Virus record (IMG/VR): IMGVR_UViG_3300035137_000008
Location: 1-31,555 of that record
Direction: 5' to 3' (one strand)
DNA: 31,555 bases
Source of the DNA: a virus
The notes beneath the pieces were generated by a model. That model did no database searches and was not told the DNA's origin. It saw nothing but the letters and a program-made list of their open reading frames with translations. The translations under genes were made by a program, and so were the position numbers. Positions 3,902 through 28,993 of the stretch are shown in pieces. Within the stretch, counting starts at the first letter, position 1, and each line of letters opens with the position of its first letter.

Positions 3902-6900
3902 TTAAGCAGCCTCCCTCATCCGTTCCTTTTTTGACGGTCTAAAAGCTCTTTTGAGCATTGTTTTAATCGTTTTTGGTGTTATCTTGGACATATGCGGGTA
4001 CTTGCTCGCGCCTTTGTTATAAGCGTCTATGTCGTTTTGAATTTCCACCCACTCTGATTTTAACCGTTTATGCATTGGTCGTAAATAGAATTTTTTTATA
4101 CGTGCATAGATGTTCGTTTTAATTTCAGAATAGTTGCGTTCAATCTTTGACTCTTTCCATTGTTTTTCTCTTATTTCTGCTACCCTCGATGGGTTAAATG
4201 ATAGTCCCCTTATCAAAGCATCAGTAAGCGTCGCCCGGGCCTGGTCCTTTCCGTAAAATATTGGGGTGTTGTTTCTGGTCGTCAGCCCTTCGGTATATTC
4301 CCTGTACGCCTTAACCGGGCTTGATAGGGCAAGCGGAAGAATACCCTCAATGCCTTTCGAAATATCACCTCTTATGATATTCCGGCCTCCTTCATATATA
4401 TCGCTGATTACGCTCCCAGGGGCCCCCACAAGGTCGTTTAGTGATGTCGGGACATCAAGTATGTTAATTGCCAAAGACCCCTTTAAAGATATTCCACGGC
4501 CTCCTAACCCTACGATTCCGTATCTTGCATAATTCGAAGCGGTTCCACCGAACTCCTGGCCTACCCATTTGTAAAAGCTTTCTTCAGGATCATCGGCGCC
4601 GAGCATTTGCCCTATTGCAGAAAGTATAGGAGTTGCTACCGATGCCCCAGCGCCGGCCAGAATAGCGGGGGCAAACATCATATAAAGCGCCGCTTTCGGG
4701 TTTTTCTGGTTAAAACCGAGATCCTTCATGGTCAAAAGGTAATTGTGTGAGAAGGTCCGGAACACATAAAACACCTGTGCCATCTTGGCCGCTGGGTTAC
4801 CGCCTCGGGCAAGGTGCGGGTAGTTCGCTTTCCCGTATTCGGCATGAGCCTTGTCTGAGACCGTCTTTGCAGTCTCAAGTGCATCCATGTGGTTCTGGGA
4901 AGTCCATTCGCCTTTATGCTGTGCCTTGATCCCCTTGTACGCGCCGAGGATTGTACCAACCCGGTTAATCTGCTCAGTAACACCAAAGCCCATCATTGAC
5001 AAATCCGTTATGTTGCTCCATGCCCTTCCGAGTTTAGACTGAAGAACCGAAAGCGCCTCTTTGTTATATTGCGCCTGGTGCCATCCTTTATCCTCTATGT
5101 GGTCAATAGCTCGTTTCGTCCACTTATCGAGATTTTTCTTTTCCCCGAATTTATAGGTTTTGTAATTCCTGAGTGCGTTCGTAATATGCCCAAAAGTTTT
5201 ATTTATCGGGATACCTGCATAACCGTTCATTGTAGCCGGCACCGCGGCCACCATGTTCGTAAGGTTGACTACGGGAGCCGATACCCTGCCTGCCAAGTAT
5301 TTCAACACAGCGATGCCTTTCATGGTGCCTATGATCCGGTCGATTGATTCCTGGTTGCGGAGCATGTCCTCCATGTAGGTTTTGGCGTCCTTGTAGGCGT
5401 TCTTCTGTTTGATCGGATCTATTCTACGGGTCTGGACTTCTTTTTTCCAATCTTCGTAGTCGGCCTCGTCACCGGCCCCTTCGATCCGTTCTCGGTATTC
5501 GCCCCATGTTTCCTGAGTCCCGGTAAGCGCCCGCACCATGGTAAGCGCCATGTTCTTTTTGGCTTCGCCGCCGGCCAAGCTTCTGGAATATTTTGTTATG
5601 GCGATAAGTGGATTTTCCTCGTATCCAACATAAACCTCTTCACCGGTTTTCTTAGATCGGCGTATCATATGAGAACGTGCGCCCCGGGCTTTGAATAAAT
5701 CCGCCACCTGTTCGGCCAGGGCCTCAAGCATGAAGTTCTGAAAAGTGATATCGTGGTCGACATCTCCCTTTTTACTCGATAGAGCTTCGTTCATCATTGC
5801 CTCGAACGCCGCCACCTGCCCGACCATTTCAAACACGTCTTCCGGCATTTTACGAGTTGGTGCCACATCAACCTGATAGCCTTTCTTTTCAAGTCTTGTC
5901 TTTTTGAACATCATAGCCGTTCGGCTGTCAAAATGATGAAGCTCCGGATTTGCACCTTCCTTTTTCGCCCACAAAGAATATTTTCCCGGTTTCCGTATCC
6001 TCGGGAAATAATATCCCCTGGCGTCACCCATTTCGGCAAGCGCCTTTTTCAAATTAATTTCCTTTGTTCCGGTCGATGATTTTACCTTTATCTTTCTAAT
6101 CGGCTCCCCTTGCGCCTCCGCTTTTGCAATCAGGTCGCGCATAGGCTGCATAAGAAGGTTAAAGCCATTGTTTGTGATCGTCCTGAAGGCTATCAGGGCT
6201 TTTACCTGCTCATCTGTCCAGCCGTTCTTTTTGGCATTGTGTGCCTCTTTCTGAAGTGCAAAATTGAGCGCTTCCTGCTCTGACTTGAATTTGCTCTTCA
6301 GGGCTATACCGTTCGGGCGTTTTACAACCCAGATATCACCGTCCTGTTCCAGCTTATACCCGATCTTATCCCGGTCCCTGGAAACAAGATATTCCTGAAG
6401 TTTTTTGAATCCGGGCTTGTCTGTTTTCTCAAGATTCCGGATTGTGGCGTTCTGGTCCTCGCCGTTCTGGTCAATGTTGAGCGTGTTGAAAAGATGCTCT
6501 TTATTGTCCTTGTTCCGGGAGCCTGCTTTGTAAATCTCCCACATTGACGGGACTTTGTTGAAATAGTGCATCGGCACTGAAAGCAGTCTGTCAAGAACTG
6601 TTGTATCGGGTCTTCCCGTCTCGACACCTTCCAAAAGGTTTTTGGCGTACTTTTTCAGAAAATCCCATGATGCGTAGGTGCTTTTTTCGATGTGATCGTC
6701 TATTGTTTCCCCGTCTATTCTGAACTGCGTCATGCCTTGGTATAGGGCTTTTTGGCGCATTTCTGGGGTTATGGGAATGGTCCAAACTTCTTTCCCTGGT
6801 AGCGTAGGAGGTTCCTTGCCGTCAACATCGGCTTCAGACTGATACCACATATTCGGTTCTTCAGAAAGGTTAGTCTTTTCGACCTTCGCATTCCCCCAAG

Positions 6901-9900
6901 ACGCCTTATTGAAAAACTTGTTGACTTCGGCGGGGAGGATACGATCATAGAAACCCGCCATTCCTGTGTTGGAAACCGTTATTTCATCGCCTTCAAATGT
7001 TCCTGACTGATCCGGGCTTTCAATAATCTTATCGCCCATAGATTTGCCAATGGCATCAGATATAGCGTTTTCTTTTTCAACCGTATCAACGACTTTTGAG
7101 CCGTTCTTGTATCCGACAAGTTGGATGCCTTTATCCGTTTTTGTCCATTCGATTTTATCGACTTCTTTTTGTAGTGCTTCCTCGTAACGATCAATTTGTG
7201 CCCTACCCGGAGTCCAAGCAATAGAATCATACCCGTTCTCTGCGGCGTAGCGTACCACTCTGCGAAGTGCCAAGCCGACATAACCTTTTGTGGTTGACAC
7301 AAAAGGACCGCTAATGTATGATGCTTGCTGTGAAGCGCCTGACTTAGATAGGAGTTTATTATGCCAATTGATAAGATTTGTGAGAGATGCGGAAAAACCT
7401 TTTCCGTCCGGCCCAGCCGCGCCGCCAAGAGATTTTGTTCCAACGTCTGCTATAGGCCCACCGCTTTCGCTGTTTGCAAGAACTGCGGCGTTACTTTCTC
7501 CCGTCCTCCCAGCGCCATTAGTAGATCTATCGACAACTTCTGCTCCCGCTCCTGCTACTTTACCAGCGAGGGTGCTACCAGGCAAGCCACCATGATAAAT
7601 GCTATCAGGGGAAAGAAGCCCCACAACTTCGCGGGTACTAAGATCGCTTGTCTTCAATGTGGGAAGGAGGTTTATGTCGCCCCGTCCAGAATCAAACGAG
7701 GACAAAAGTTTTGTTCTAAGAGATGCGCCGACCTCTCTCGCAGAGTTGAGGACCGCAAGCCCTATCCTCCTCCTGGTTTTATCAGATATTGGCTTAGAGA
7801 ACACCGCATTATTGTTGAGGATATCATCAAGCGTCGTCTCAAAACCATCGAGGAGGTCCACCACATCGATGGGGACCCCACTAATAACAGCCCTGCGAAC
7901 CTGATCGTGCTTAAGAATAGCCAGCACTCCACCGTCACCTGCCTCAATAGGCATCACAGAACTCAACTTAGCGCCGAAGATATCCTTTCCAAGTTCCCCG
8001 ACGCCCTGTGGCTTGGTAATTTCACTGATAGCCTTTCGGTTTGACGCGGCCCAATCCGACTGAATCTCTTCCAAAAAAAGTATCTTCTCTCCATTTGGGC
8101 CTGTGCGGTCGTTCATTCGGACGTGAACCACGATGTTGGGTTCGTCGAAGTGGGGCGATTTGTATATATCTCCTTTTTTTGTTTGTTCCATACCAGTTTC
8201 GAGTAATTTATTAAGCCTGTCCAGCTCCTGCTTTTCTGCTGCCGAAGCCGTACCGTACAATTCTTCATATGACAAATCGCGGCCATACTTTTTTCTTAGT
8301 TCATCTTGGTATCCAAGGAGTTCATTGTTGATGGCATCCTCATTTATAGGGACTGTTTTTGTTGGCAACGTCAGCAACACTTCCCGGTAATTTTCCTTTT
8401 CGCCTTCCATTTGCCATTGGGAGAACTTGGTATCGTCGGGTTGGTATCCATCTGCATAAATATTATACGACGATACCAAATCTTCTTCAGAAAACCCGTA
8501 TTCGTTTTTATATCTTTCATCAATCTCTTTTAAAAGAATATTAGCTTTATGTTGCGAAATCTGCCCACCGTAATCACGTTTTCTCTCTACCTCGTACCTC
8601 TCACCTTTATATGCCTCAAGCAATCGCTTCTGTTCTGGCGACCATCTTTTTCTCTCGCCCTTAACAACCTCCTCTATTTTCACGTTGTTTTCTGCAAGAT
8701 AATCAAGCACCTGCTGCTTTGTGATCTTGCCTTTTTGGTCGTCAAGCCATTCAATGAGCCCTGAATGATCCAACTCTTCAGCCTTGAACAGCCCTTTATT
8801 AGCCCAAGAATTGACGGCCTGCTTTATTTGCCCCGGCGTTCCTGCCCCTGGCAACTTTTCGTGTAAAACCTGCTCAAGCTTTGATACCCATACCGGGGCA
8901 AGGACATTTTCGTTCTTAGACGCCTGAAGCCCGACCCCCCTCGGGGTTTCTCGAACCTCACCAATCTCAAGATTACCGAAAATATCTTCAGCCGTCTGGA
9001 ATCCGGCACCCCTGAGAAGGTTGCGGAGTTTCGTGAAAAATGTCTTCAACTTCGCATATATGCGTTTCACAAGTTTCGATGACGGTTCAGTTCCATCGGT
9101 CTGGTATACGGCGTATCCCTCTGCTGCGTCCTCTTCATTGCCCTTATACATCTTCATAAGGGTTTTGTATTGTGCGTCTGTGAGTAGCCACCGGGCAGCC
9201 ATATGGAAAAGCTCATGGTATGCTGTGCGCTCCATGGCCATCAGGTCTTGAGCGAGTGCGATCGTTATTACAGATTCAATGTCATTCGTGTCGGTTACAC
9301 CGAGTGTCGCTCCTTTTTGATCGGCCTTGGCCTTGATAATTGGTTGAAGCTTCACACGGAGTTTATCGACCGGGAAACCTGATCGTTCGATTGCTGATAG
9401 GACAAGCTTTGATGCTGTCTGAAGGTCAGCGAGTTTTGCTGTGGTTTCTCCTTTTCTTTCCTGTTTTTCGGTTTTATCAACCTTTTTTGCGGTCTGTTTT
9501 TCAGGTGTTTCACGTGAAACTTTTTCTTGTTTGGTTTCTTTTGGTTTCGGCTCTGGCTTACCAGCAAGCTTTATCTCATGCATCTTACCGTCTTTTGCGG
9601 AAAGAACGATAGAATCTACTGTTATTTCTTTACCTTCGAAAGCTTTATCGCCTACATATTTTTTGCCTTCCCCATTTTTTACATATGCTATTGTCGCATG
9701 AGGGAGATAATCCTTGAAGGTTTCCCCCGGCAGGTCAACAGTATCTCCTACTTTTTTATTCGCAGCTTTCAGGTCCTCGCTTTCAATATCGACCTTTACA
9801 ACATCATAATCGTCTGTTTCGAAAATAGAAACCTTCCCCATCTTTGCCTTTATAGGCCCGAGCCCTTCAAATACGGGAGCGATTTCTTTCGGGTCCACCG

Positions 9901-12115
9901 TTTCCATCCCGTATCGAACGGTGATGTGTGGGTTATCCTCACGACCGTATGAATCGTCATTCGGGTCGGTATAAATCTCATTCTCTGGGATATTGTTAGC
10001 ATATGCCTTTATTTCACCGGCTTCTTTTTCTGGTATATTTATTTGAGTGCTGCTGTAATCATGTGTCTGAGTTTTTCCCTCGGTTTTATCTAATCCGCCT
10101 CGTTGACCGGCTTGTGATGGCGGTACCAGTAATTGATCGCCGCCTGCTTCTTCGCCTTCTTTAACGCTGCCTTTCGGCTCAGCCCTTCCTTCCGATACTT
10201 CCCTGCCAGGTGGTTTCTCTCCTTCTTGTATTCCAGTGGCATTAGGTTCCTCCTTCATCCTGACACCGACAAGCTCTCTTTCGAGTTCATCAAGCAGGGA
10301 CATTTCATCGGTTGTAGCCGCCCTCAGAGGCGTTTTAGAGCGTCTTTCTGTTTTACGTTGCTCTACCTCTACGGGTCGGCTTAAAACACGCCTGTCTGAC
10401 TTCCTACGGCCAAAATCTATGGCTTCCGGGGTGACAACCGCTGGCTTAATTGATTCCTCTTCGGTGGTTGATCCAGGTGCCACCCCGGGCTGAGCCCTTT
10501 CCGGTCCCTTTTCATGCTTGAATGTTTCTCCAGGAGACAGCCCTTGCCCACCTTCATATTCTTCTACAGCCGCAAGAGCTTTTTTTATTGCCTCCCTTAC
10601 TTCAAGCTCTCTGCTTTTCTCATATTTATCAGATCTCAAAATTCCTTTTTGGATCGCTTTTTTTCTATCATCTAATTCCTGCGCTAAGTCGGATGCTTTC
10701 TTAACCATTTCACCAGCAAAGGTATCCGGCCTTATTATAGGAACATTTGAACTCGCCAATCTTTTACCGCTCCTGCGCTGAAATTTTTGTATATCAGGTT
10801 CAATTTCTGCTGCCTGTCTTATTTTTTCAATCCGTTGTCTTTCCTTATCTTCAAAAACAGCAGCAGAGTCCGCTGCCGGTGATTGCGATGGATAGCTTTC
10901 AAATACTTTTGCGGACTCCATTGCGCTTTTATTGAAATTCGGCTGAGTGATGGGCTCTGTAATTTCCTGTATGTTCTCTTGGGTTATCGGTTCTATCGGG
11001 AAAGCTCTTTTGCCAAGCTCGACATTGTTTTCAAATGCCTGTATCGCTTCATCCGGAGTGGTTGCATTACCGATATTCGCTTTTATCGAAAGTTCACGAT
11101 CAATTGCTTTCAGGTCTTCAGGCTCAAGTAACCCACGGCTTGTGATGTCTCCACGGGCAGCGCCATATGTTGCGCCACCAATACCGGTCAAGCCTGTCAA
11201 CACCACTGTAGGCCCAACGACATTCAGAGCTTCGGCAAGTGGCTGTGCTTCTGGCCGTATGGCTGTGTATTTCTCAACCGCTGCTTCACCAGCCTGCTGT
11301 CCTGCTTCCGTGCTCACTTCAATCCCAAGGGACTTGAAAAAGTCAGTTATTACCTGTTTTGCCCCTCTTTTTGCTATTACACCTTCAGACAATCCAAATA
11401 GTTTTGTTAGTCCCTTTGTGCCAAAATATTCGCCGGCGCCTTCGATGCCTGCGGTCGTTAGACCGGCCGGGCCTAATGCAAGCCCTATGATTTTATCGGC
11501 TTCTTCGTTCCTTCCTTCAGCCCTTAATTGCTTTGCCCTATCTTCTGCATTTTCAACTGTCTGCTCGTACTGATTAGCAGCGAAGAGCATAGCCGTTCCT
11601 ATCGGCCCAACTGTTACCGCTGGGATAAGTGAAGGTGCGGCCATCTTTGCACCTTCGTAGATCGTTTTTCTGACAGGGCCATATTCTTCTGTTCTACCTC
11701 CAAACCATTGTTTTTCCTTTTCATCAGCCCATTTTTTTATTGATTCACCGATATCAAAAGCGCCTTGTTTGAACTCTTTTATTTTCTGTTCAACCATGAA
11801 CGGAAAAGCTGCGATCGGATGGTGTTTTTTTAGGAGGTCTATTGTCTCGGGTTCAAGTTCAATATTCCCTGGTAAGGGAGGTAACGATACTCGTGTAAGC
11901 GCCTGGCCTGCGCCTGCAAGCGTTCTGGGCAATTCTGTGGTAGCACTTGCGGCTAACCCGGTTCCGACAGCTTCAATAGCGCCATTTGGCTGGCTTAGGT
12001 CAAGAGCGTACTCACCGAGCTTAGACTTCCAACCGCTTCGAAGTTGTCGGCTTGCTTCAGACCATACATCTTCTTCGGAATTCATTTCATTCAGTGCGTC
12101 TTCAAAAATGCCCAT
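3902..12115 (-). CDS. Giant polyvalent protein (2737 aa) with 2H phosphoesterase and zincin domains
   Basis: One uninterrupted frame, probably packaged in the virion and injected with the DNA. Visible regions: hydrophobic Gly/Ala segments (about residues 155-330); a 2H phosphoesterase-type domain (about 685-850) with H730-x-T732 in NPHITVRYG and H806-x-T808 in LPHATIAYV; a zincin-like peptidase with H967ELFH971 and a likely third ligand E999; a polyvalent-associated segment at about 1073-1150; a conserved phage domain from about 1320 with EEIQSDW at 1349-1355, resuming at G1603-P-F; and a long C-terminal part resembling LPD38-type polyvalent regions (F-R-T-F-x-x-N-Y-L pattern). Residues 1358-1585 are antisense to the HNH gene. 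The start shares TAATG with the preceding gene. Architecture matches the polyvalent proteins described by Iyer and colleagues; activities are inferred from motifs. Confidence 0.93.
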   Translation of the reverse strand: MGIFEDALNEMNSEEDVWSEASRQLRSGWKSKLGEYALDLSQPNGAIEAVGTGLAASATTELPRTLAGAGQALTRVSLPPLPGNIELEPETIDLLKKHHPIAAFPFMVEQKIKEFKQGAFDIGESIKKWADEKEKQWFGGRTEEYGPVRKTIYEGAKMAAPSLIPAVTVGPIGTAMLFAANQYEQTVENAEDRAKQLRAEGRNEEADKIIGLALGPAGLTTAGIEGAGEYFGTKGLTKLFGLSEGVIAKRGAKQVITDFFKSLGIEVSTEAGQQAGEAAVEKYTAIRPEAQPLAEALNVVGPTVVLTGLTGIGGATYGAARGDITSRGLLEPEDLKAIDRELSIKANIGNATTPDEAIQAFENNVELGKRAFPIEPITQENIQEITEPITQPNFNKSAMESAKVFESYPSQSPAADSAAVFEDKERQRIEKIRQAAEIEPDIQKFQRRSGKRLASSNVPIIRPDTFAGEMVKKASDLAQELDDRKKAIQKGILRSDKYEKSRELEVREAIKKALAAVEEYEGGQGLSPGETFKHEKGPERAQPGVAPGSTTEEESIKPAVVTPEAIDFGRRKSDRRVLSRPVEVEQRKTERRSKTPLRAATTDEMSLLDELERELVGVRMKEEPNATGIQEGEKPPGREVSEGRAEPKGSVKEGEEAGGDQLLVPPSQAGQRGGLDKTEGKTQTHDYSSTQINIPEKEAGEIKAYANNIPENEIYTDPNDDSYGREDNPHITVRYGMETVDPKEIAPVFEGLGPIKAKMGKVSIFETDDYDVVKVDIESEDLKAANKKVGDTVDLPGETFKDYLPHATIAYVKNGEGKKYVGDKAFEGKEITVDSIVLSAKDGKMHEIKLAGKPEPKPKETKQEKVSRETPEKQTAKKVDKTEKQERKGETTAKLADLQTASKLVLSAIERSGFPVDKLRVKLQPIIKAKADQKGATLGVTDTNDIESVITIALAQDLMAMERTAYHELFHMAARWLLTDAQYKTLMKMYKGNEEDAAEGYAVYQTDGTEPSSKLVKRIYAKLKTFFTKLRNLLRGAGFQTAEDIFGNLEIGEVRETPRGVGLQASKNENVLAPVWVSKLEQVLHEKLPGAGTPGQIKQAVNSWANKGLFKAEELDHSGLIEWLDDQKGKITKQQVLDYLAENNVKIEEVVKGERKRWSPEQKRLLEAYKGERYEVERKRDYGGQISQHKANILLKEIDERYKNEYGFSEEDLVSSYNIYADGYQPDDTKFSQWQMEGEKENYREVLLTLPTKTVPINEDAINNELLGYQDELRKKYGRDLSYEELYGTASAAEKQELDRLNKLLETGMEQTKKGDIYKSPHFDEPNIVVHVRMNDRTGPNGEKILFLEEIQSDWAASNRKAISEITKPQGVGELGKDIFGAKLSSVMPIEAGDGGVLAILKHDQVRRAVISGVPIDVVDLLDGFETTLDDILNNNAVFSKPISDKTRRRIGLAVLNSAREVGASLRTKLLSSFDSGRGDINLLPTLKTSDLSTREVVGLLSPDSIYHGGLPGSTLAGKVAGAGAEVVDRSTNGAGRTGESNAAVLANSESGGPIADVGTKSLGGAAGPDGKGFSASLTNLINWHNKLLSKSGASQQASYISGPFVSTTKGYVGLALRRVVRYAAENGYDSIAWTPGRAQIDRYEEALQKEVDKIEWTKTDKGIQLVGYKNGSKVVDTVEKENAISDAIGKSMGDKIIESPDQSGTFEGDEITVSNTGMAGFYDRILPAEVNKFFNKASWGNAKVEKTNLSEEPNMWYQSEADVDGKEPPTLPGKEVWTIPITPEMRQKALYQGMTQFRIDGETIDDHIEKSTYASWDFLKKYAKNLLEGVETGRPDTTVLDRLLSVPMHYFNKVPSMWEIYKAGSRNKDNKEHLFNTLNIDQNGEDQNATIRNLEKTDKPGFKKLQEYLVSRDRDKIGYKLEQDGDIWVVKRPNGIALKSKFKSEQEALNFALQKEAHNAKKNGWTDEQVKALIAFRTITNNGFNLLMQPMRDLIAKAEAQGEPIRKIKVKSSTGTKEINLKKALAEMGDARGYYFPRIRKPGKYSLWAKKEGANPELHHFDSRTAMMFKKTRLEKKGYQVDVAPTRKMPEDVFEMVGQVAAFEAMMNEALSSKKGDVDHDITFQNFMLEALAEQVADLFKARGARSHMIRRSKKTGEEVYVGYEENPLIAITKYSRSLAGGEAKKNMALTMVRALTGTQETWGEYRERIEGAGDEADYEDWKKEVQTRRIDPIKQKNAYKDAKTYMEDMLRNQESIDRIIGTMKGIAVLKYLAGRVSAPVVNLTNMVAAVPATMNGYAGIPINKTFGHITNALRNYKTYKFGEKKNLDKWTKRAIDHIEDKGWHQAQYNKEALSVLQSKLGRAWSNITDLSMMGFGVTEQINRVGTILGAYKGIKAQHKGEWTSQNHMDALETAKTVSDKAHAEYGKANYPHLARGGNPAAKMAQVFYVFRTFSHNYLLTMKDLGFNQKNPKAALYMMFAPAILAGAGASVATPILSAIGQMLGADDPEESFYKWVGQEFGGTASNYARYGIVGLGGRGISLKGSLAINILDVPTSLNDLVGAPGSVISDIYEGGRNIIRGDISKGIEGILPLALSSPVKAYREYTEGLTTRNNTPIFYGKDQARATLTDALIRGLSFNPSRVAEIREKQWKESKIERNYSEIKTNIYARIKKFYLRPMHKRLKSEWVEIQNDIDAYNKGASKYPHMSKITPKTIKTMLKRAFRPSKKERMREAA
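5354..5407 (-). repeat. Copy A of an 18-residue coding repeat (inside the giant gene)
   Basis: This segment encodes QKNAYKDAKTYMEDMLRN at residues 2237-2254 of the giant protein. The same 18 residues are encoded at 25139-25192. The two DNA copies match at 45 of 54 bases, and every difference is synonymous. Confidence 0.85.
7294..7322 (+). promoter_or_regulatory. Sigma70-type promoter for the HNH gene
   Basis: A perfect TTGACA (7294-7299) is followed by a 17-base spacer and TATGAT (7317-7322, five of six consensus bases). The predicted start is near 7329, leaving a leader of about 30 bases before the ATG at 7361. The -35 box lies in giant-gene codons that look conserved, while the -10 box lies at the edge of the presumed insertion. 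Inferred from sequence only. Confidence 0.7.
7349..7354 (+). promoter_or_regulatory. Ribosome-binding site of the HNH gene
   Basis: TAGGAG sits six bases upstream of the ATG at 7361, an ideal spacing. An in-frame TAG at 7349-7351 closes the frame upstream, so this start is the only sensible one and supports independent translation on the plus strand. Confidence 0.75.
7361..8044 (+). CDS. HNH homing endonuclease with three zinc ribbons, nested antisense in the giant gene
   Basis: The only plus-strand gene I accept; 227 residues. Three Cys4 zinc-ribbon repeats come first: C7/C10 with C26/C30, C39/C42 with C61/C65, and C97/C100 with C118/C122. The HNH nuclease follows, with H167-H168 in EEVHHIDGDPTNN, N176 or N180, and H189, as in free-standing phage homing endonucleases. 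Translation signals are excellent: TAGGAG six bases before the ATG, and a near-consensus sigma70 promoter 39 bases upstream of the ATG. Its codons lie exactly opposite those of the minus-strand giant gene, and both frames are open throughout. The stop TGA is the complement of giant-gene codon S1358, three residues after a conserved tryptophan. No intron core or intein motif is present, so I read it as a direct insertion of an endonuclease gene. Confidence 0.88.
   Translation: MPIDKICERCGKTFSVRPSRAAKRFCSNVCYRPTAFAVCKNCGVTFSRPPSAISRSIDNFCSRSCYFTSEGATRQATMINAIRGKKPHNFAGTKIACLQCGKEVYVAPSRIKRGQKFCSKRCADLSRRVEDRKPYPPPGFIRYWLREHRIIVEDIIKRRLKTIEEVHHIDGDPTNNSPANLIVLKNSQHSTVTCLNRHHRTQLSAEDILSKFPDALWLGNFTDSLSV
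9506..9521. promoter_or_regulatory. parS-like palindrome inside the giant gene
   Basis: TGTTTCACGTGAAACT matches the bacterial parS consensus TGTTTCACGTGAAACA at 15 of 16 positions, with a perfect 14-base palindromic core at 9507-9520. parS is the ParB-binding centromere site of most bacterial chromosomes. On the minus strand it encodes V-S-R-E-T at about residues 866-870 of the giant protein, in a Lys/Glu-rich linker where codons are free to vary. Binding by a host or phage ParB is inferred, not shown. Confidence 0.55.
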
Positions 12116-21933: not shown

Positions 21934-22929
21934 TTAGGACGGGTAAGCCCTTAAGAGAGCATAGTTGATCTTATGGGCCGTCAAAGGGTTCGCGCTGAAT
22001 TCACAGGTCAATATGCCCGCGGCTGATACATAACTCTTGACGATAGAGTCTGTGTCATCCGTAACCCCCCATGCAGTTATGGGCAGGTCCGTGGTCAACG
22101 CCCCTGTTACCGTTATGTCGTTTGAATACGGGGTAGCTACTGCGTCCGCGACGGAAGTGTGAATACCGGCATACGCAATGTAATGAGACGGCTTGAAAGT
22201 TCCCCGCGGCCTCAAAATCACGTAATTGAGTACATGGGTTGAACTCGGGTCTGTGGACAAAACGACAGTGAGTGTATCCGCAGATACTTGCGCCTGCTCG
22301 ATAGTGTCGGTATCGTCCGTGTCCCCGAAACAGACAAGTGCCTTATCTCCCGCCTGCGCACCGGTTACGGTGATGGTTTCCGTATCGTCCCCGCCAACCG
22401 TTGTATGCGTCCCGGCTGCGAATATGTCCCACTCAGGAACGCATTTGTTGCGCATAACGGCATATTGATAGTCATGGACCGTGGAAGGATCGGCGCTTGT
22501 TGCCAGCTGTAGAAAAGATTTCCCGGCTGTTACAATCGCCTCCGGCTGGTCTGCGTCGTTGCCGGCGAACCATCCGACAAGAGGAATGTCGTTTTCCTCG
22601 CACAGATCCAGTAAGACTTCATCCGTCTGGCTTCCGTCTGTCGCGTCCTTGATGCCTGCGTATTTAAACCCATACCCAAGCACCGGGCCGTCAGGCACGA
22701 ACAGGGCCGAACTCGGTGAGCCGATATTAATCCATCTCGGGCACATACCGAGGGTTGCATTAGGTAGAATGAACTTGCATCCTGCTGCGTACCCCGCAGA
22801 TCCAGCACCAGGGATGGAATCGCCAACGGCAAGGGTTTCGTACTTATTCCCGACCGACAGCATTGCCAAAATGGACTTTTGAGCCCTCGGGTCGGCAATG
22901 TCTTTAATGTACTGCATAAGTTTGCTCAT
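21934..22929 (-). CDS. Virion protein with three related beta modules, probable head decoration
   Basis: 331 residues. After an N-terminal part with a conserved-looking GDSIPGAGSAGYAAGCKFI segment, three divergent modules of about 72-77 residues follow: 86-160 (from YGFKYAGIKD to YAVMR), 169-240 (from DIFAAGTHTT to YVILR) and 251-327 (from IAYAGIHTS to YALLR). Each holds beta strands, a D-D-T-D or N-D-A-D stretch and a late T/V-H-x(3)-Y. AAGGAGG stands upstream of the ATG. Located next to the major capsid gene and before another small head protein; likely decorates the capsid surface. Not a family I can name. Confidence 0.72.
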   Translation of the reverse strand: MSKLMQYIKDIADPRAQKSILAMLSVGNKYETLAVGDSIPGAGSAGYAAGCKFILPNATLGMCPRWINIGSPSSALFVPDGPVLGYGFKYAGIKDATDGSQTDEVLLDLCEENDIPLVGWFAGNDADQPEAIVTAGKSFLQLATSADPSTVHDYQYAVMRNKCVPEWDIFAAGTHTTVGGDDTETITVTGAQAGDKALVCFGDTDDTDTIEQAQVSADTLTVVLSTDPSSTHVLNYVILRPRGTFKPSHYIAYAGIHTSVADAVATPYSNDITVTGALTTDLPITAWGVTDDTDSIVKSYVSAAGILTCEFSANPLTAHKINYALLRAYPS

Positions 22930-24017: not shown

Positions 24018-24995
24018 TTATGTCTCCTCTGCCTCGATCTGCTTCCATACGACCCGGCGTTGCTCCTCGGGGGGAAGATCGTCAAAGCCTTTGTCATTGA
24101 CCTTTCCACGACTTGTTTGTGTCGTCTCCGAAGCTTTCAGCCTAGCCTCTTTTTCTGCGTTGATCTCGGCTGCTGATTTTTTTGGTTTTTCTTTTTTCGC
24201 TTCGCCGTAGGCTTTTAAAACCGTTGCGGCATCCTCGACCTTTGAACTTGCCGTAAGTTTTTTGATGTCATCGGGTTGTTTTTCGAGCCAGGTTTTATAC
24301 TCATCGGTAACGATTGTTTTTTTCCAGCCGGGAAAATCATCACTTAACTGGATTTCGGCCTCCAAACGCTCGATTCTCGCCAGGGAGTTGGTCTCTTTCT
24401 GAGTCAAACTACCTTCAGCTTGTTTCTTTTCGAGTTCCGCCTTTGAATCTTTAAGCTGTTGAACATGATCCTCAAGAGCTTTGACCTTTGCGTCTAGACT
24501 CTTTGCCGTACCCGTGATAGCATTGTAAAGCTCCGGATCGCTCTCCTTGAGGTCTGCAAGGGCTTTCTTGCTGCGCTCCGTTTCTTCCAATTCTTCAGGG
24601 GTCGGTTTGTTTGCATCTTCTTCAGCTTTCTTTTTGGCGGCTTCAGCTTCCTTCTGCTTGGAGTTGTAATAATCGTTGTGCATTGCACCGATGCGGCCTT
24701 CAGCGCTTTTGAGGCGTTGATCCAAACTCCCTATTCCGGATTCAACCGTTGATTGAATTGTTTCAAGGGTCTTGCGTAGACCAGGGCTGACACCTTCCCA
24801 GGCATCTTCCTGGGGTGTCTCCGTGGATTCGTCGTCTTTCCCCTCTTCTCCGGTCGGTTCACTTGGTTTCGTCTCTTTTTCCTCTGGGGGTTTCGGCGTG
24901 GCTTGTGTACCAGGCGTTTCGTCAGTCTCCCAGATTTCCGCTGCTGCTTTGGCCCTTTCTTCCTGCTGCTCTTTGATCTCCTCTTCCGATGGCAT
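24018..24995 (-). CDS. Scaffolding protein
   Basis: 325 residues, extremely charged: residues 1-70 acidic with Pro/Glu/Thr, 75-230 a long coiled coil in K/E/A-rich heptads, 230-275 an ordered segment (LSDDFPGWKKTIVTDEYKTW), and a basic C-terminus. Composition and position immediately before the major capsid gene are typical of phage scaffolds that shape the procapsid and then leave. GAAGGAGG precedes the ATG. It is the first gene after the terminator at 25056-25092, so it must be reached by read-through or by a promoter I could not identify. Confidence 0.85.
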   Translation of the reverse strand: MPSEEEIKEQQEERAKAAAEIWETDETPGTQATPKPPEEKETKPSEPTGEEGKDDESTETPQEDAWEGVSPGLRKTLETIQSTVESGIGSLDQRLKSAEGRIGAMHNDYYNSKQKEAEAAKKKAEEDANKPTPEELEETERSKKALADLKESDPELYNAITGTAKSLDAKVKALEDHVQQLKDSKAELEKKQAEGSLTQKETNSLARIERLEAEIQLSDDFPGWKKTIVTDEYKTWLEKQPDDIKKLTASSKVEDAATVLKAYGEAKKEKPKKSAAEINAEKEARLKASETTQTSRGKVNDKGFDDLPPEEQRRVVWKQIEAEET

Positions 24996-25055
24996 CGTTT
25001 ACCTCCTTCACCCATGTTTCCAGGGGTGGCTTGCGGCGTTTCCGGCGCGTTGAAT

Positions 25056-25092
25056 AAAAAAAGGGCTCCGATCATAATGATCAGGAGCCCTT
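25056..25092 (-). terminator. Intrinsic terminator before the scaffold-capsid block
   Basis: On the minus strand a nine-base stem (AAGGGCTCC/GGAGCCCTT, 25061-25069 with 25084-25092), a bulged base and five further pairs around a three-base loop are followed by seven U residues (25056-25062, overlapping the stem). It separates the small head genes from scaffold and capsid. No U tract follows on the plus strand. Confidence 0.85.
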
Positions 25093-25138
25093 AAATAGTG
25101 GTCGTTGCCTGTTATGTTTGTGGCTACTTTTTAACTAT

Positions 25139-25192
25139 ATTCCTTAGCATGTCTTCCATGTAGGTCTTTGCGTCTTTGTAGGCGTTTTTCTG
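25139..25192 (-). repeat. Copy B of the 18-residue coding repeat
   Basis: In the -1 frame relative to the 79-residue gene this encodes QKNAYKDAKTYMEDMLRN, exactly as at 5354-5407. Eight of 18 codons differ, all synonymously (nine base changes). Similarity stops sharply at both ends: I-x before, I-V-K-K-stop after. Confidence 0.85.
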
Positions 25193-25383
25193 AATGAATT
25201 CACATTGCTATAATCCTTTTTAGGGTTTTTTGACTCAGTGTTATCAACTTTAATTGACACTTCTTTGAATCGTATATACCTTAATTCCGGTCTGTTGTCA
25301 AGCTCTATCGTGTAATACAGACCATACGAGCTAAAAAGCGATTCAAGTTCAGCTTTTAGTTTTTCAGCTTCAGATCTCGTCAT
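25144..25383 (-). CDS. Small head-module protein, possibly frameshifted at its 3' end
   Basis: In the open frame the product has 79 residues, starting MTRSEAEKLKAELESLF. The ATG overlaps the previous gene. No family is recognised. The last 16 codons look wrong for a protein: in the -1 frame the same DNA encodes QKNAYKDAKTYMEDMLRN, identical to residues 2237-2254 of the giant protein, followed by IVKK and a stop at 25124. A -1 shift at the A5 run near 25189 would give an 86-residue protein (to 25124). Either a frameshift mutation or read error occurred, ribosomes shift frame here, or the segment is a recombined fragment. Confidence 0.6.
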   Translation of the reverse strand: MTRSEAEKLKAELESLFSSYGLYYTIELDNRPELRYIRFKEVSIKVDNTESKNPKKDYSNVNSFRKTPTKTQRPTWKTC

Positions 25384-25654
25384 TCGATAGCATCTCCAAT
25401 AGTCCGGACTTTTTTTCGCTAGTTTCAGGCAAGGCGATAAGGTCTTGAAGGATTCTTACCTGTCCCCGGTAAAACTCGGTATCCAGTTCGTCGTTTGAAC
25501 GGCTGATACATTCGTCTGTGGCCGTTTTAAGACGTTTCTCTGCCCATGCCTTGATAAATACCCATGTAGATGACGCCGGTTCCAGGTATGAGTGCTCCGG
25601 GTTTAACGTTCCGAATGATTGGGGCTTTTGTTTCTTTTTCTTGAATAAACTCAT
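25370..25654 (-). CDS. Small conserved-type phage head-module protein (94 aa)
   Basis: A charged 94-residue protein with a basic N-terminus (LFKKKKQKPQ) and an amphipathic helical core (VFIKAWAEKRLKTATDECISRSND, then FYRGQVRILQDLIALPE). This pattern occurs in small unnamed proteins next to podophage capsid genes. The ribosome site of the ATG at 25654 is weak; AAGGAAGG sits about 20 bases upstream, before a five-codon ATG frame. Its end overlaps the next gene. Function unknown. Confidence 0.65.
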   Translation of the reverse strand: MSLFKKKKQKPQSFGTLNPEHSYLEPASSTWVFIKAWAEKRLKTATDECISRSNDELDTEFYRGQVRILQDLIALPETSEKKSGLLEMLSNDEI

Positions 25655-25743: not shown

Positions 25744-26088
25744 TCAATCCTCCATCTCGTCCCACATTTCTTTCCGCTCACGGGTCTTGACATCCAGGTC
25801 CTCACCGATCTCTATGGCTGTCATCTGAATTTCAATACGTTTCCTTGGGCCGTCCTGCCGGTCGCTGTCATTAACCGATTTCGAAACGACTCTGCCGACT
25901 GCACGGACCATCACCTTATCATCGACGTTCAGATCTCCGATATCGAGCTTGTCAACCAGCTTCCCATCGAAATCAAGGCGGGTGCCGTATGGATATTCCG
26001 GACCGCCATAATCTTCTGTCTTTGAGGCGGCAACCGGGCTATCATACATCTCTTTCTTTTCAGCTTTGGTTAGTTTTAGGCTTTTCAT
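25744..26088 (-). CDS. Capsid-staple-like protein (114 aa)
   Basis: The opening MKSLKLTKAEKKEMYD, the central GGPEYPYGTRLDFDGKLVDKLDI and the following beta-rich GDKVMVRAVGRVV-type region match, from memory, small phage proteins annotated as capsid staple proteins, which cover capsomer contacts. GGAGG lies four bases before the ATG. It is the first gene after the repeat-rich gap at 26.1-26.5 kb, so transcription of the head block may be controlled from there. The family call is moderate; reality of the gene is likely. Confidence 0.7.
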   Translation of the reverse strand: MKSLKLTKAEKKEMYDSPVAASKTEDYGGPEYPYGTRLDFDGKLVDKLDIGDLNVDDKVMVRAVGRVVSKSVNDSDRQDGPRKRIEIQMTAIEIGEDLDVKTRERKEMWDEMED

Positions 26089-26108
26089 TGTACCTCCATT
26101 TTAAAGAT

Positions 26109-26289
26109 GGAAACTTTTATGGAAACATGCCGGGAAAAGTTTCCTGGAAACATCGGTGGAAACTTCAGGAAACATTTATACTATATCTATTGGTTATCAT
26201 TAAATAAAAATATGTTTCCATTAGTGCTCAAGACCGTCCGCCCTAACATATGTTTCTCGAAACATGTTAGGGGCGGAAACAGGAAACAT
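26109..26289. repeat. Cluster of GGAAAC(AT) half-sites, candidate operator or origin-like element
   Basis: GGAAAC starts at 26109, 26121, 26146, 26158, 26168, 26275 and 26282, and reads on the other strand at 26214-26219; four of these extend to GGAAACAT (26121, 26146, 26168, 26282) and the inverted copy to ATGTTTCC (26212). A near-palindrome with TGTTTC and GAAACA arms (26251-26264) lies between. Several spacings are 10-12 bases, about one helical turn. An AT-rich stretch at 26174-26215 divides the sites. The cluster lies just upstream of the capsid-staple-like gene. Binding by a regulator or replication protein is inferred. Confidence 0.6.
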
Positions 26290-26402
26290 TTAGAGTTTTT
26301 TGCCTCAATCAATGTGTCTTTGGTTCCAGACTTCCAGAACTCGTCTATCAGGCTGTCTATCAATGTTTCTATTTTTTCGCTCAATCTGGAGGGCCCTTTC
26401 AT
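26187..26402 (-). CDS. Doubtful small open frame across the repeat cluster
   Basis: From the ATG at 26402 the frame gives 71 residues. The first half (RLSEKIETLIDSLIDEFWKSG) looks helical and protein-like, while the second half is translated repeat DNA. There is no convincing ribosome-binding site. It could be a real small gene whose end was rewritten by the repeats, a remnant, or chance. I list it because it is the only candidate in this 428-base gap. Confidence 0.22.
   Translation of the reverse strand: MKGPSRLSEKIETLIDSLIDEFWKSGTKDTLIEAKNSKCFLFPPLTCFEKHMLGRTVLSTNGNIFLFNDNQ
26238..26276. repeat. Long imperfect palindrome (hairpin)
   Basis: Arms CCGCC-CTAACAT and GTTTC pair with their complements on the right, with one bulged G and a two-base bulge (26250-26251), around a tiny TC centre: about 16-17 base pairs in all. 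No U run follows on either strand, so it is not an intrinsic terminator. It is part of the GGAAAC cluster and could be a protein-binding palindrome. Confidence 0.65.
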
Positions 26403-26422
26403 TTGCCGCGTAAAAACCAAAC

Positions 26423-26486
26423 ATCGGAATTTTACGTCTTGCCCTAAAATTCTTATCGGAATTTTACGTCTTGCCCTAAAATTCTT
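26423..26486. repeat. Perfect 32-base tandem duplication with internal hairpin
   Basis: Two identical 32-base units lie head to tail at 26423-26454 and 26455-26486. Each contains perfect eight-base inverted arms GAATTTTA and TAAAATTC around a ten-base centre (CGTCTTGCCC). There are no spacers, so it is not a CRISPR array; no U run follows, so not a normal terminator. It lies 30 bases downstream of the 79-residue gene after the portal. A regulator-binding or RNA-structure role is possible. Confidence 0.85.
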
Positions 26487-26516
26487 AATTGCATTTTGGG
26501 CGGTTCGTATCTTTTA

Positions 26517-26756
26517 TCATTGGAAAGCGTTCCCTTGTTCCAGCAAAACGAACCGTTCAGATACTTCAAAGTTTGCTACATATTTGCCTCTTGTACGATC
26601 GAACCTGAACGGTTCCGTACATCTTCCAGTACATCCTATCTCTTTTCCATATTTTGGAGTTTCTGCATATCGATCTACAGGCATAAAATTTGGTAATTCC
26701 ATTGTCCTATCGACTTCATTCGGTTTTATATACGATACTAATTCACATATTTTCAT
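26517..26756 (-). CDS. Small unknown protein following the portal gene (79 aa)
   Basis: The ATG overlaps the portal stop as ATGA, a strong sign of translational coupling. The 79-residue product has charged, aromatic and proline residues evenly spread (ELPNFMPVDRYAETPKYG, FRFDRTRGKYVANFEVSERF) and a C-x3-C pair (CTGRC). No family recognised. It is the last gene before the repeat-rich gap. A minor head role is likely only by context. Confidence 0.62.
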   Translation of the reverse strand: MKICELVSYIKPNEVDRTMELPNFMPVDRYAETPKYGKEIGCTGRCTEPFRFDRTRGKYVANFEVSERFVLLEQGNAFQ

Positions 26757-28993
26757 TGCTGAAACGCCTCCCCCGGTGCTGCACGTTGCCCGGGCTCAGA
26801 AACAGGAGTTGCCACCTGCTCGGCCGGTTTCGTCTTCACAACAGATAGTTCCCGCTGAAGATTTAGTTTGTATGCCGATTCGGTTAATTTGGCTTTCAAG
26901 TCTGCAAGTGTTAGTTTGCTTTCCTCCGCCATCTCCATTTGTTTAATAGCAAAGTCGAATTGTTTCAACTGCATTTCGTGGTCTCGCTCGACCTTTGCGG
27001 CCTGTTCCTTCGCCTTAATTTCTGCTATATCGAAGTTTTGGCGCAGTTTTTCCTTTTCCATTTCGCCGCTTGCCTTGATTTTTGCGGTTTCGATCCTCGG
27101 GTCTGATGGGGGTGGTTGCTGCCGGCGTTCTTCTTCGAGTTGTTTGATCTCGGTATCAGATTTCATGATGTCCATTTTCAGGATGTTGGCAATAACTTTC
27201 GCGCCCTTCTTCCAATCGTACCAGATTGAGAAGTCCGGGTCACCCTTCAGCAAAAGCAGGTCCTTGACCATGTTCGCCTGATGCTGCTTCTCAACGAGGA
27301 TACGGGCGCCTTTCGGATCAACATTATAATCACCCTTGTATTCCGATGGGCATTCAGGGTCTTGCATGTTGAGGTCATAATATCGCGTGAGGTGCGGGAC
27401 TGTGATTTCATCATCCCATAGAACAGCACGGTTTCTATTCGCCACGTTGGAAGAATCCACCAGTATATCGGTCTGCCCGAGTGTTTCAGGCATGTCTCTC
27501 TTTTCACCTTGGAACAGCATTGGGGTAGTGGTTTCCATGTCCATGAAGCGGAGTGCCAGCTCTATAATCTGCTGTAATGCTGCCTGGTTGTTTGTAATCT
27601 GCATGACGTTGAGCGCTTGCCGAACGTCTTTGATGTCCCTGGGAGCGACCCACATTGACATACAACCGATTTTTTCTTGCAATGTGACACTTTCCGACCT
27701 GATGACATGCGCCCCGGCCATCTCCCTGGCATTATCCATCATAGCCCTCCATGCCGCGGTAATGACTTTCTGAGACCATGCCGCGGCCCGGGGGTTTCCG
27801 GACCCGAATACTGAACCGGATACTTCAGACCATTGAAAAAAATCATAAATCAGGTCTTTCCCGTCGCAGGGATAAATAGCGGCTTTGATCGGGATATCGT
27901 TCGCCATGATCACACAGGCGGTATAGCTTTCGTCTTCGAGGCCTTCGCAGTCGCAACCCATTGCGATCAGGTCTTCTTTGTCAACGTCTCCGTGGTATTC
28001 CCATTTTTCGTACGCAAGCCCGGATGAAACAACGTCCTGATTGACAGCATACTTCCCCGGCTGCCCCTTGATCGGAACAGTCGTTGTCCTTTTAGGGGAA
28101 TCTGAAAGAACAATTTCAATGAGTTCCGGAATATAACCCTGGTCGACCATTTTTTTCAGGTCACGCAATTCCCGGGGAAGGATTGTGCCGCGTTCCCAGA
28201 TATATGGCGCCTTCCGGATATTGTCACCGCAACCAGGGGCAGGATATACACAGTCCGGATCGACTGAATATGATTCCGGCTTGCGCTGTTCGATTCGTTC
28301 TTGGCTCCATGCGCTTCCTGATTCGTCCTTTGTCTCTACCCATTTCCGTTGGATACGCCTGACAACAACAGGGCCCTTGAGCACTCCGGTACCGAGTTTT
28401 GCAGCGTTAAAAACGACTTTCCGACATTCAGCGTTGAACTTGCACTCTGTCAGTTGGTCGTCGATGTATGTTTCCATACCGGCCATGCGTTTATCCGCCT
28501 TTTCCTTCTTTTTCCTGGCTATGTCGGATATTCGTATTTGCTGGCCTGACTGCTCATCAACTACCATATTGTCGTTTATATCCACGGCTGGGCTGGTGTC
28601 GGCCATAGCACCGTCCATATCAGGATCCGGAGTTGCCTTTAATCCCCAATTACGGTCATTTGTCGGCATGATGGTGTCTGAGAACCTGCCGGCGCATACC
28701 TCTGTACGACCCCGTATGACATTGACAACTACCTTTGATCCCTTTTTTGTGGCATTCGACTGCGGCCTGATCACCTTTCCGGTCACATAATCCATCATTG
28801 GAGATGGTGGGGAACCGTCCTGGTTTGCGGAAAGAGCCTCGTTATAGATTTTTTCGTCCTCTACCCATCTTTGTTCACATCCGTCTGATGCCCGGGCCTG
28901 GATCGCCTCATCACGTTTTGTTAAAAGGGATTCCGCGAGCGCGAGTATCCGCTTTACACGCTCCCCACCTTGCGTCTTATCTGTTTTATCCAT
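26753..28993 (-). CDS. Portal protein
   Basis: 746 residues, the size of P22-type portals. It lies between the terminase genes and the scaffold, as expected. The N-terminal 60 residues are helical. The middle contains the alpha/beta core with portal-like segments (YDFFQWSEVSGSVFGSGNPR, AWRAMMDNAREMAGAH, TTPMLFQGEKRDMPETLGQ), which resemble the wing and stem regions of podophage portals. Residues about 630-715 form a long charged coiled coil, and the tail is Gln/Pro-rich. The portal ring is the DNA gate of the head and docks the terminase and connector. The start has GGAAAG seven bases upstream and overlaps the previous gene by eight bases. Confidence 0.88.
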   Translation of the reverse strand: MDKTDKTQGGERVKRILALAESLLTKRDEAIQARASDGCEQRWVEDEKIYNEALSANQDGSPPSPMMDYVTGKVIRPQSNATKKGSKVVVNVIRGRTEVCAGRFSDTIMPTNDRNWGLKATPDPDMDGAMADTSPAVDINDNMVVDEQSGQQIRISDIARKKKEKADKRMAGMETYIDDQLTECKFNAECRKVVFNAAKLGTGVLKGPVVVRRIQRKWVETKDESGSAWSQERIEQRKPESYSVDPDCVYPAPGCGDNIRKAPYIWERGTILPRELRDLKKMVDQGYIPELIEIVLSDSPKRTTTVPIKGQPGKYAVNQDVVSSGLAYEKWEYHGDVDKEDLIAMGCDCEGLEDESYTACVIMANDIPIKAAIYPCDGKDLIYDFFQWSEVSGSVFGSGNPRAAAWSQKVITAAWRAMMDNAREMAGAHVIRSESVTLQEKIGCMSMWVAPRDIKDVRQALNVMQITNNQAALQQIIELALRFMDMETTTPMLFQGEKRDMPETLGQTDILVDSSNVANRNRAVLWDDEITVPHLTRYYDLNMQDPECPSEYKGDYNVDPKGARILVEKQHQANMVKDLLLLKGDPDFSIWYDWKKGAKVIANILKMDIMKSDTEIKQLEEERRQQPPPSDPRIETAKIKASGEMEKEKLRQNFDIAEIKAKEQAAKVERDHEMQLKQFDFAIKQMEMAEESKLTLADLKAKLTESAYKLNLQRELSVVKTKPAEQVATPVSEPGQRAAPGEAFQQ

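Follow-up and report, generated by a model that had tools for sequence, protein, structure and literature searches.

A 54-nt repeat with silent differences links a PLxRFG giant gene to the head module of a phage genome and is probably a captured mosaic scrap

What does it mean when a phage encodes the same 18-residue peptide twice, once inside a giant gene and once among its head genes, with every difference between the two copies silent? The question is raised by the window, the whole 31,555-nucleotide stretch of viral DNA that was analysed. The resident copy is situated at 5354-5407 on the minus strand, where codons 2237-2254 of the giant protein gene encode QKNAYKDAKTYMEDMLRN inside the PLxRFG (NF032893) domain. 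The second copy, referred to as the scrap, is a 54-nt piece at 25139-25192, also on the minus strand, which encodes the same QKNAYKDAKTYMEDMLRN and is identical to the resident copy at 45 of 54 positions. The nine nucleotide differences are spread over eight codons, and each of them is synonymous in the giant frame. The first-pass annotation had reported a peptide encoded twice, 20 kb apart, with eight of 18 codons differing and no residue changed, and both statements are confirmed here at the nucleotide level. When the window was compared with itself by blastn, the pair was the sole repeat with E <= 1e-4 (47 nt, 89 %, E 1.4e-10), and the similarity is therefore not due to chance.

The ends of the scrap are sharp. 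Its homology to the giant gene covers exactly 54 nt and extends into neither flank, and the same limits are observed against L015, the closest relative; the abrupt edges described earlier thus hold against two giant genes. The edges coincide with codon boundaries, and the span amounts to roughly one helix predicted for the giant protein in a low-confidence model. The repeat might also be an artefact of metagenomic assembly or amplification, as the window is a single IMG/VR virus record. Such an artefact would take two joins 54 nt apart between sequences that are just 83 % alike, ordinary sequence and a good terminator lie beyond the scrap, and the window holds no other distant duplication, which makes this explanation extremely unlikely.

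The giant protein gene (3902-12115, minus strand) encodes 2737 aa, of which residues 2035-2730 match NF032893, “PLxRFG domain-containing protein”, with 137.4 bits, above the curated cutoff of 100. The AlphaFold model of this C-terminus is weak, with a mean pLDDT of 60. Other parts of the protein deserve mention on their own account. Residues 726-817 form a weak 2H-phosphoesterase/Acb1-like stretch, which matches phrog_755 (E 1.5e-6) and, with scores under the respective cutoffs, Pfam Acb1 (anti-CBASS; 19.9 bits, cutoff 27) and TIGR02258. If real, an anti-CBASS-like domain carried in the virion by a polyvalent protein would be worth a separate look. The protein also carries an HExxH motif (HELFH) in the residue stretch AYHELFHMA; zincin-like peptidase domains with an HExxH motif are known in polyvalent proteins (PMC5512222).

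Comparison with related genomes reveals which copy came first. Thirteen virus contigs and one contig of a Desulfobacterales MAG, 14 related records in all, have an orthologous segment at the equivalent position of a PLxRFG-type giant gene. Its context is conserved, and in most of them RR(I/V)DP lies upstream and LRN at the end. Each of the 14 records, including G022, contains the segment once, and a second copy is absent from all of them. Because 14 relatives have the segment in the giant gene and none has it twice, the giant-gene copy is the original, the direction runs from giant gene to scrap, and the second copy is special to this phage. Beforehand, a one-off insertion of the giant-gene fragment among relatives had been named as an observation that would speak against the first-pass reading; a one-off is indeed present, but it is the copy at the small gene and not the giant-gene fragment. 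We also note that G022 (L031/L036, 62614 bases) is the only relative found that combines a giant-gene C-terminus with a capsid gene (60 %) as in the window.

Searches for the source of the scrap covered several collections. The exact peptide pattern gave no match in viral contigs, and a relaxed pattern found only the L015 contig, whose one copy lies within its giant gene. Neither a protein search in phages nor the terminator pattern identified a donor. The donor phage may be unsampled.

The scrap belongs to a phage-specific insert at about 24996-25383 (minus strand), located between the gene at 25370-25654 and the scaffold-position gene at 24018-24995. The insert comprises a 79-codon ORF, the scrap and a terminator, and occupies ~375 bases between the flanking genes. 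It is missing from all nine related contigs whose portal, scaffold-position and capsid genes are homologous to those of the window (L003, L004, L005, L006, L007, L009, L011, L013 and L014, some of which are near-duplicates of each other). In these contigs, the counterpart of 25370-25654, assigned by homology or by position, overlaps the scaffold-position gene or lies within ~65 bases of it, and neither an extra gene nor the scrap is observed ahead of the scaffold-position gene. The presence of the segment as a native part of 14 giant genes, together with the absence of the insert from nine head modules, gives good support to the earlier suggestion that the fragment was imported from a related phage.

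The small ORF (25144-25383, minus strand, 79 codons, 36 % GC) runs into the scrap in a different frame (...RKTPTKTQRPTWKTC), and its stop codon lies within the repeat, at 25144-25146. Its Pfam match to DUF669 over residues 7-67 is marginal (22.3 bits against a cutoff of 21), and because a six-frame DUF669 scan of the window did not recover the ORF, the match is a lead only. Searches of IMG/VR (with 8-mer patterns), of phages and plasmids and of the 26 related records detected no relative of the small ORF; nor did one of 85 genomes of the class of the giant-gene MAG, a search that had no positive control and is weak alone. An intrinsic terminator with a long GC-rich stem followed by a T run is located downstream of the scrap at 25061-25093 (minus strand). 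The stretch 25050-25230 folds stably as RNA (z -3.4), mostly owing to the terminator stem. The scrap region matches no Rfam family and contains no tRNA.

The insert resembles a moron, the term for a small additional gene lodged between conserved genes of a phage, in being a low-GC small ORF with a terminator between two conserved head genes. A promoter-like site above chance was not detected next to it. Its ORF differs from a moron in overlapping the upstream gene and in running with its end into the scrap.

Nearby and elsewhere, a few further features were recorded. A low-GC stretch at 26089-26752, between the portal-position gene and the gene at 25744-26088, contains a 32-nt tandem repeat without mismatches (26423-26486) as well as several repeats of the GGAAAC type. 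It also holds a possible 79-codon gene at 26517-26756 on the minus strand that has no relative among the compared loci, and the ORF at 26107-26946 on the plus strand, which has no family match, was not counted as a gene. A 42-nt repeat in G021 (L039-L041), with copies at 22479-22519 and 38488-38529 that are 93 % alike, 16 kb apart and at two gene boundaries, was considered as a parallel case and rejected, as it is instead the terminator-like intergenic sequence ATACCGGCTTTTTTATTGGCC.

The silent character of the differences calls for an explanation. Nine randomly placed changes would all be silent with a probability of ~1e-7 to 2e-6, depending on transition bias. A single neutral change is silent with a probability of only ~0.2, so that a copy left untranslated for long would carry replacements. 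Read in the small-ORF frame, the same DNA gives residues that differ (IRSNRRTPTRTPKPTWRTC vs VNSFRKTPTKTQRPTWKTC, flanks included). As the differences are silent in the giant frame and many are replacing in the small-ORF frame, the selection and divergence that shaped them took place in the giant frame. A diversity-generating retroelement, with the two copies as template and variable repeat, was tried and rejected, since three of the nine differences fall off adenines with the scrap as template and eight of the nine with the resident copy as template. Two accounts are left, namely a recent capture from the giant gene of another phage, already silently diverged, or ongoing selection on a copy that is translated. 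The former needs ordinary phage recombination only, while the latter needs an expression route, and none is visible.

The second account can be followed through the peptide frame itself. The scrap lies in a stop-to-stop stretch of 27 codons (25127-25207, minus strand) that reads QCEFI-QKNAYKDAKTYMEDMLRN-IVKK with TAG on both sides, the upstream TAG being five codons before the peptide. The earlier reading that the peptide is followed by IVKK and a stop therefore stands, but the peptide does not end the small ORF, which uses another frame. The open stretch holds no ATG, GTG or TTG ahead of the peptide. A programmed -1 frameshift out of the small ORF was rejected, as the junction codons AGA AAA ACG (in the small-ORF frame) provide no canonical X XXY YYZ heptamer. 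A Shine-Dalgarno-like AAGGA is present 8 nt ahead of an ATG; TGA directly follows that ATG, and the peptide would be in frame with it if there were one base fewer. Ordinary start signals for the peptide frame are thus absent. Given a TAG just upstream and the lack of both a usual start and a canonical slippery site, there is no sign that the peptide is produced, and the scrap is most likely untranslated in this frame.

These observations bear on the possibility that the peptide is functional, in which the small gene would yield a helix of the giant protein through a -1 frameshift or a non-standard start, and the helix would dock a partner, direct packaging or compete with the giant protein of a rival phage. 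Identity at 18 of 18 residues despite nine nucleotide changes is what such a module would display, as are the codon-boundary edges, the extent of about one predicted helix and the near-frame AAGGA-ATG pair. The lack of a usual start or canonical slip site, the close upstream stop, the absence of a second copy from every relative and that of the insert from related head modules oppose it, and we regard it as quite unlikely. In a narrower version, which is very unlikely, one PLxRFG helix, made by recoding or from a non-standard start, would attach to giant proteins and serve either in packaging, as a tag, or as a dominant-negative inhibitor of relatives that co-infect. The docking or packaging tag put forward in the first-pass annotation finds no footing in a peptide that is out of frame with the small ORF and has neither a usual start nor a canonical slip site, and protein-level selection on both copies is unsupported, given that no expression route is visible and no relative of the small gene was found.

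The codons of the two copies differ in character. Those of the scrap are typical of the giant gene of the window. The resident segment, by comparison, has a GC3 of 0.94 (G or C in the third position of 17 of 18 codons) vs 0.46 for the gene, a value matched by just 0.07 % of the 18-codon windows of the giant gene. L015 shares five of the nine differing bases with the scrap and one with the resident copy; other relatives lean the opposite way. The polarity of the changes, judged from the sequences, modestly favours an outside donor giant gene with a silent history of its own. The GC3 outlier hints that the resident segment is a short recombined patch, and thereby allows a later overwriting. Hence the scrap could be a snapshot of the former giant gene of this very phage, whose resident segment was afterwards replaced through homologous recombination with a relative richer in GC3. 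The typical codons of the scrap, the extreme GC3 of the resident segment and the closeness of L015 to the scrap at silent sites agree with this order of events. Against it, a second event is invoked although a single one would do, the patch of high GC3 is short, and a mildly raised GC3 is seen at the same segment in several relatives; on balance, we consider this reading unlikely.

The 54 nt might also be a regulatory, recombination or processing site in both places, with the peptide as a by-product. Among giant genes, the segment keeps the same codons somewhat more often than expected; when this was retested with codon usage accounted for, the excess shrank to 71 observed vs 54.6 expected (~2 % rank), a signal that is weak because the rows are related. 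The scrap is also close to the terminator. However, the changes follow the codon pattern exactly, which is not required of a DNA site, no Rfam family is matched and the relatives have no second copies. A DNA- or RNA-level element is therefore highly improbable.

Taken together, the scrap is probably a recently captured mosaic piece of the PLxRFG giant gene of a related phage, most likely without function. We infer a donor whose giant gene had diverged silently from that of this phage, with purifying selection acting on both before the capture. A 54-nt piece would then have been captured recently by non-homologous (illegitimate) recombination and would have landed at the 3' end of the small insert between two head genes. 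DNA just ahead of a terminator, at the end of a gene, presumably does little harm, and scraps may be tolerated there. Too little time would have passed since the capture for decay, such that only the silent differences remain. The failure of the exact peptide to identify a donor in viral contigs counts against the captured scrap, as does the slightly raised same-codon conservation, and ends on codon boundaries around one helix would suit a functional module.

Phage mosaicism has been attributed to illegitimate and homeologous recombination (PMC2327257). The scrap is like the mosaicism described there in being a sharp-edged patch with no flanking homology, inserted in one phage only and at a gene boundary. 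It differs from the usual case in being unusually short, in having its source in the interior of a giant gene and in sharing a genome with a resident copy that has diverged. Its donor gene would be of the PLxRFG giant or polyvalent type (NF032893; PMC5512222), with the peptide belonging to the conserved C-terminal domain; in contrast to that full domain, the scrap spans about one predicted helix and is no domain on its own.

The locus illustrates that a repeat with only silent differences can mimic selection on both copies where only the donor gene was under selection, prior to the capture. Read as a probable capture, the scrap is also a record of mosaicism on a very short scale, with a patch that comes from within a giant gene. 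Were the peptide produced, it would suggest a binding helix in the PLxRFG proteins, which are poorly understood.
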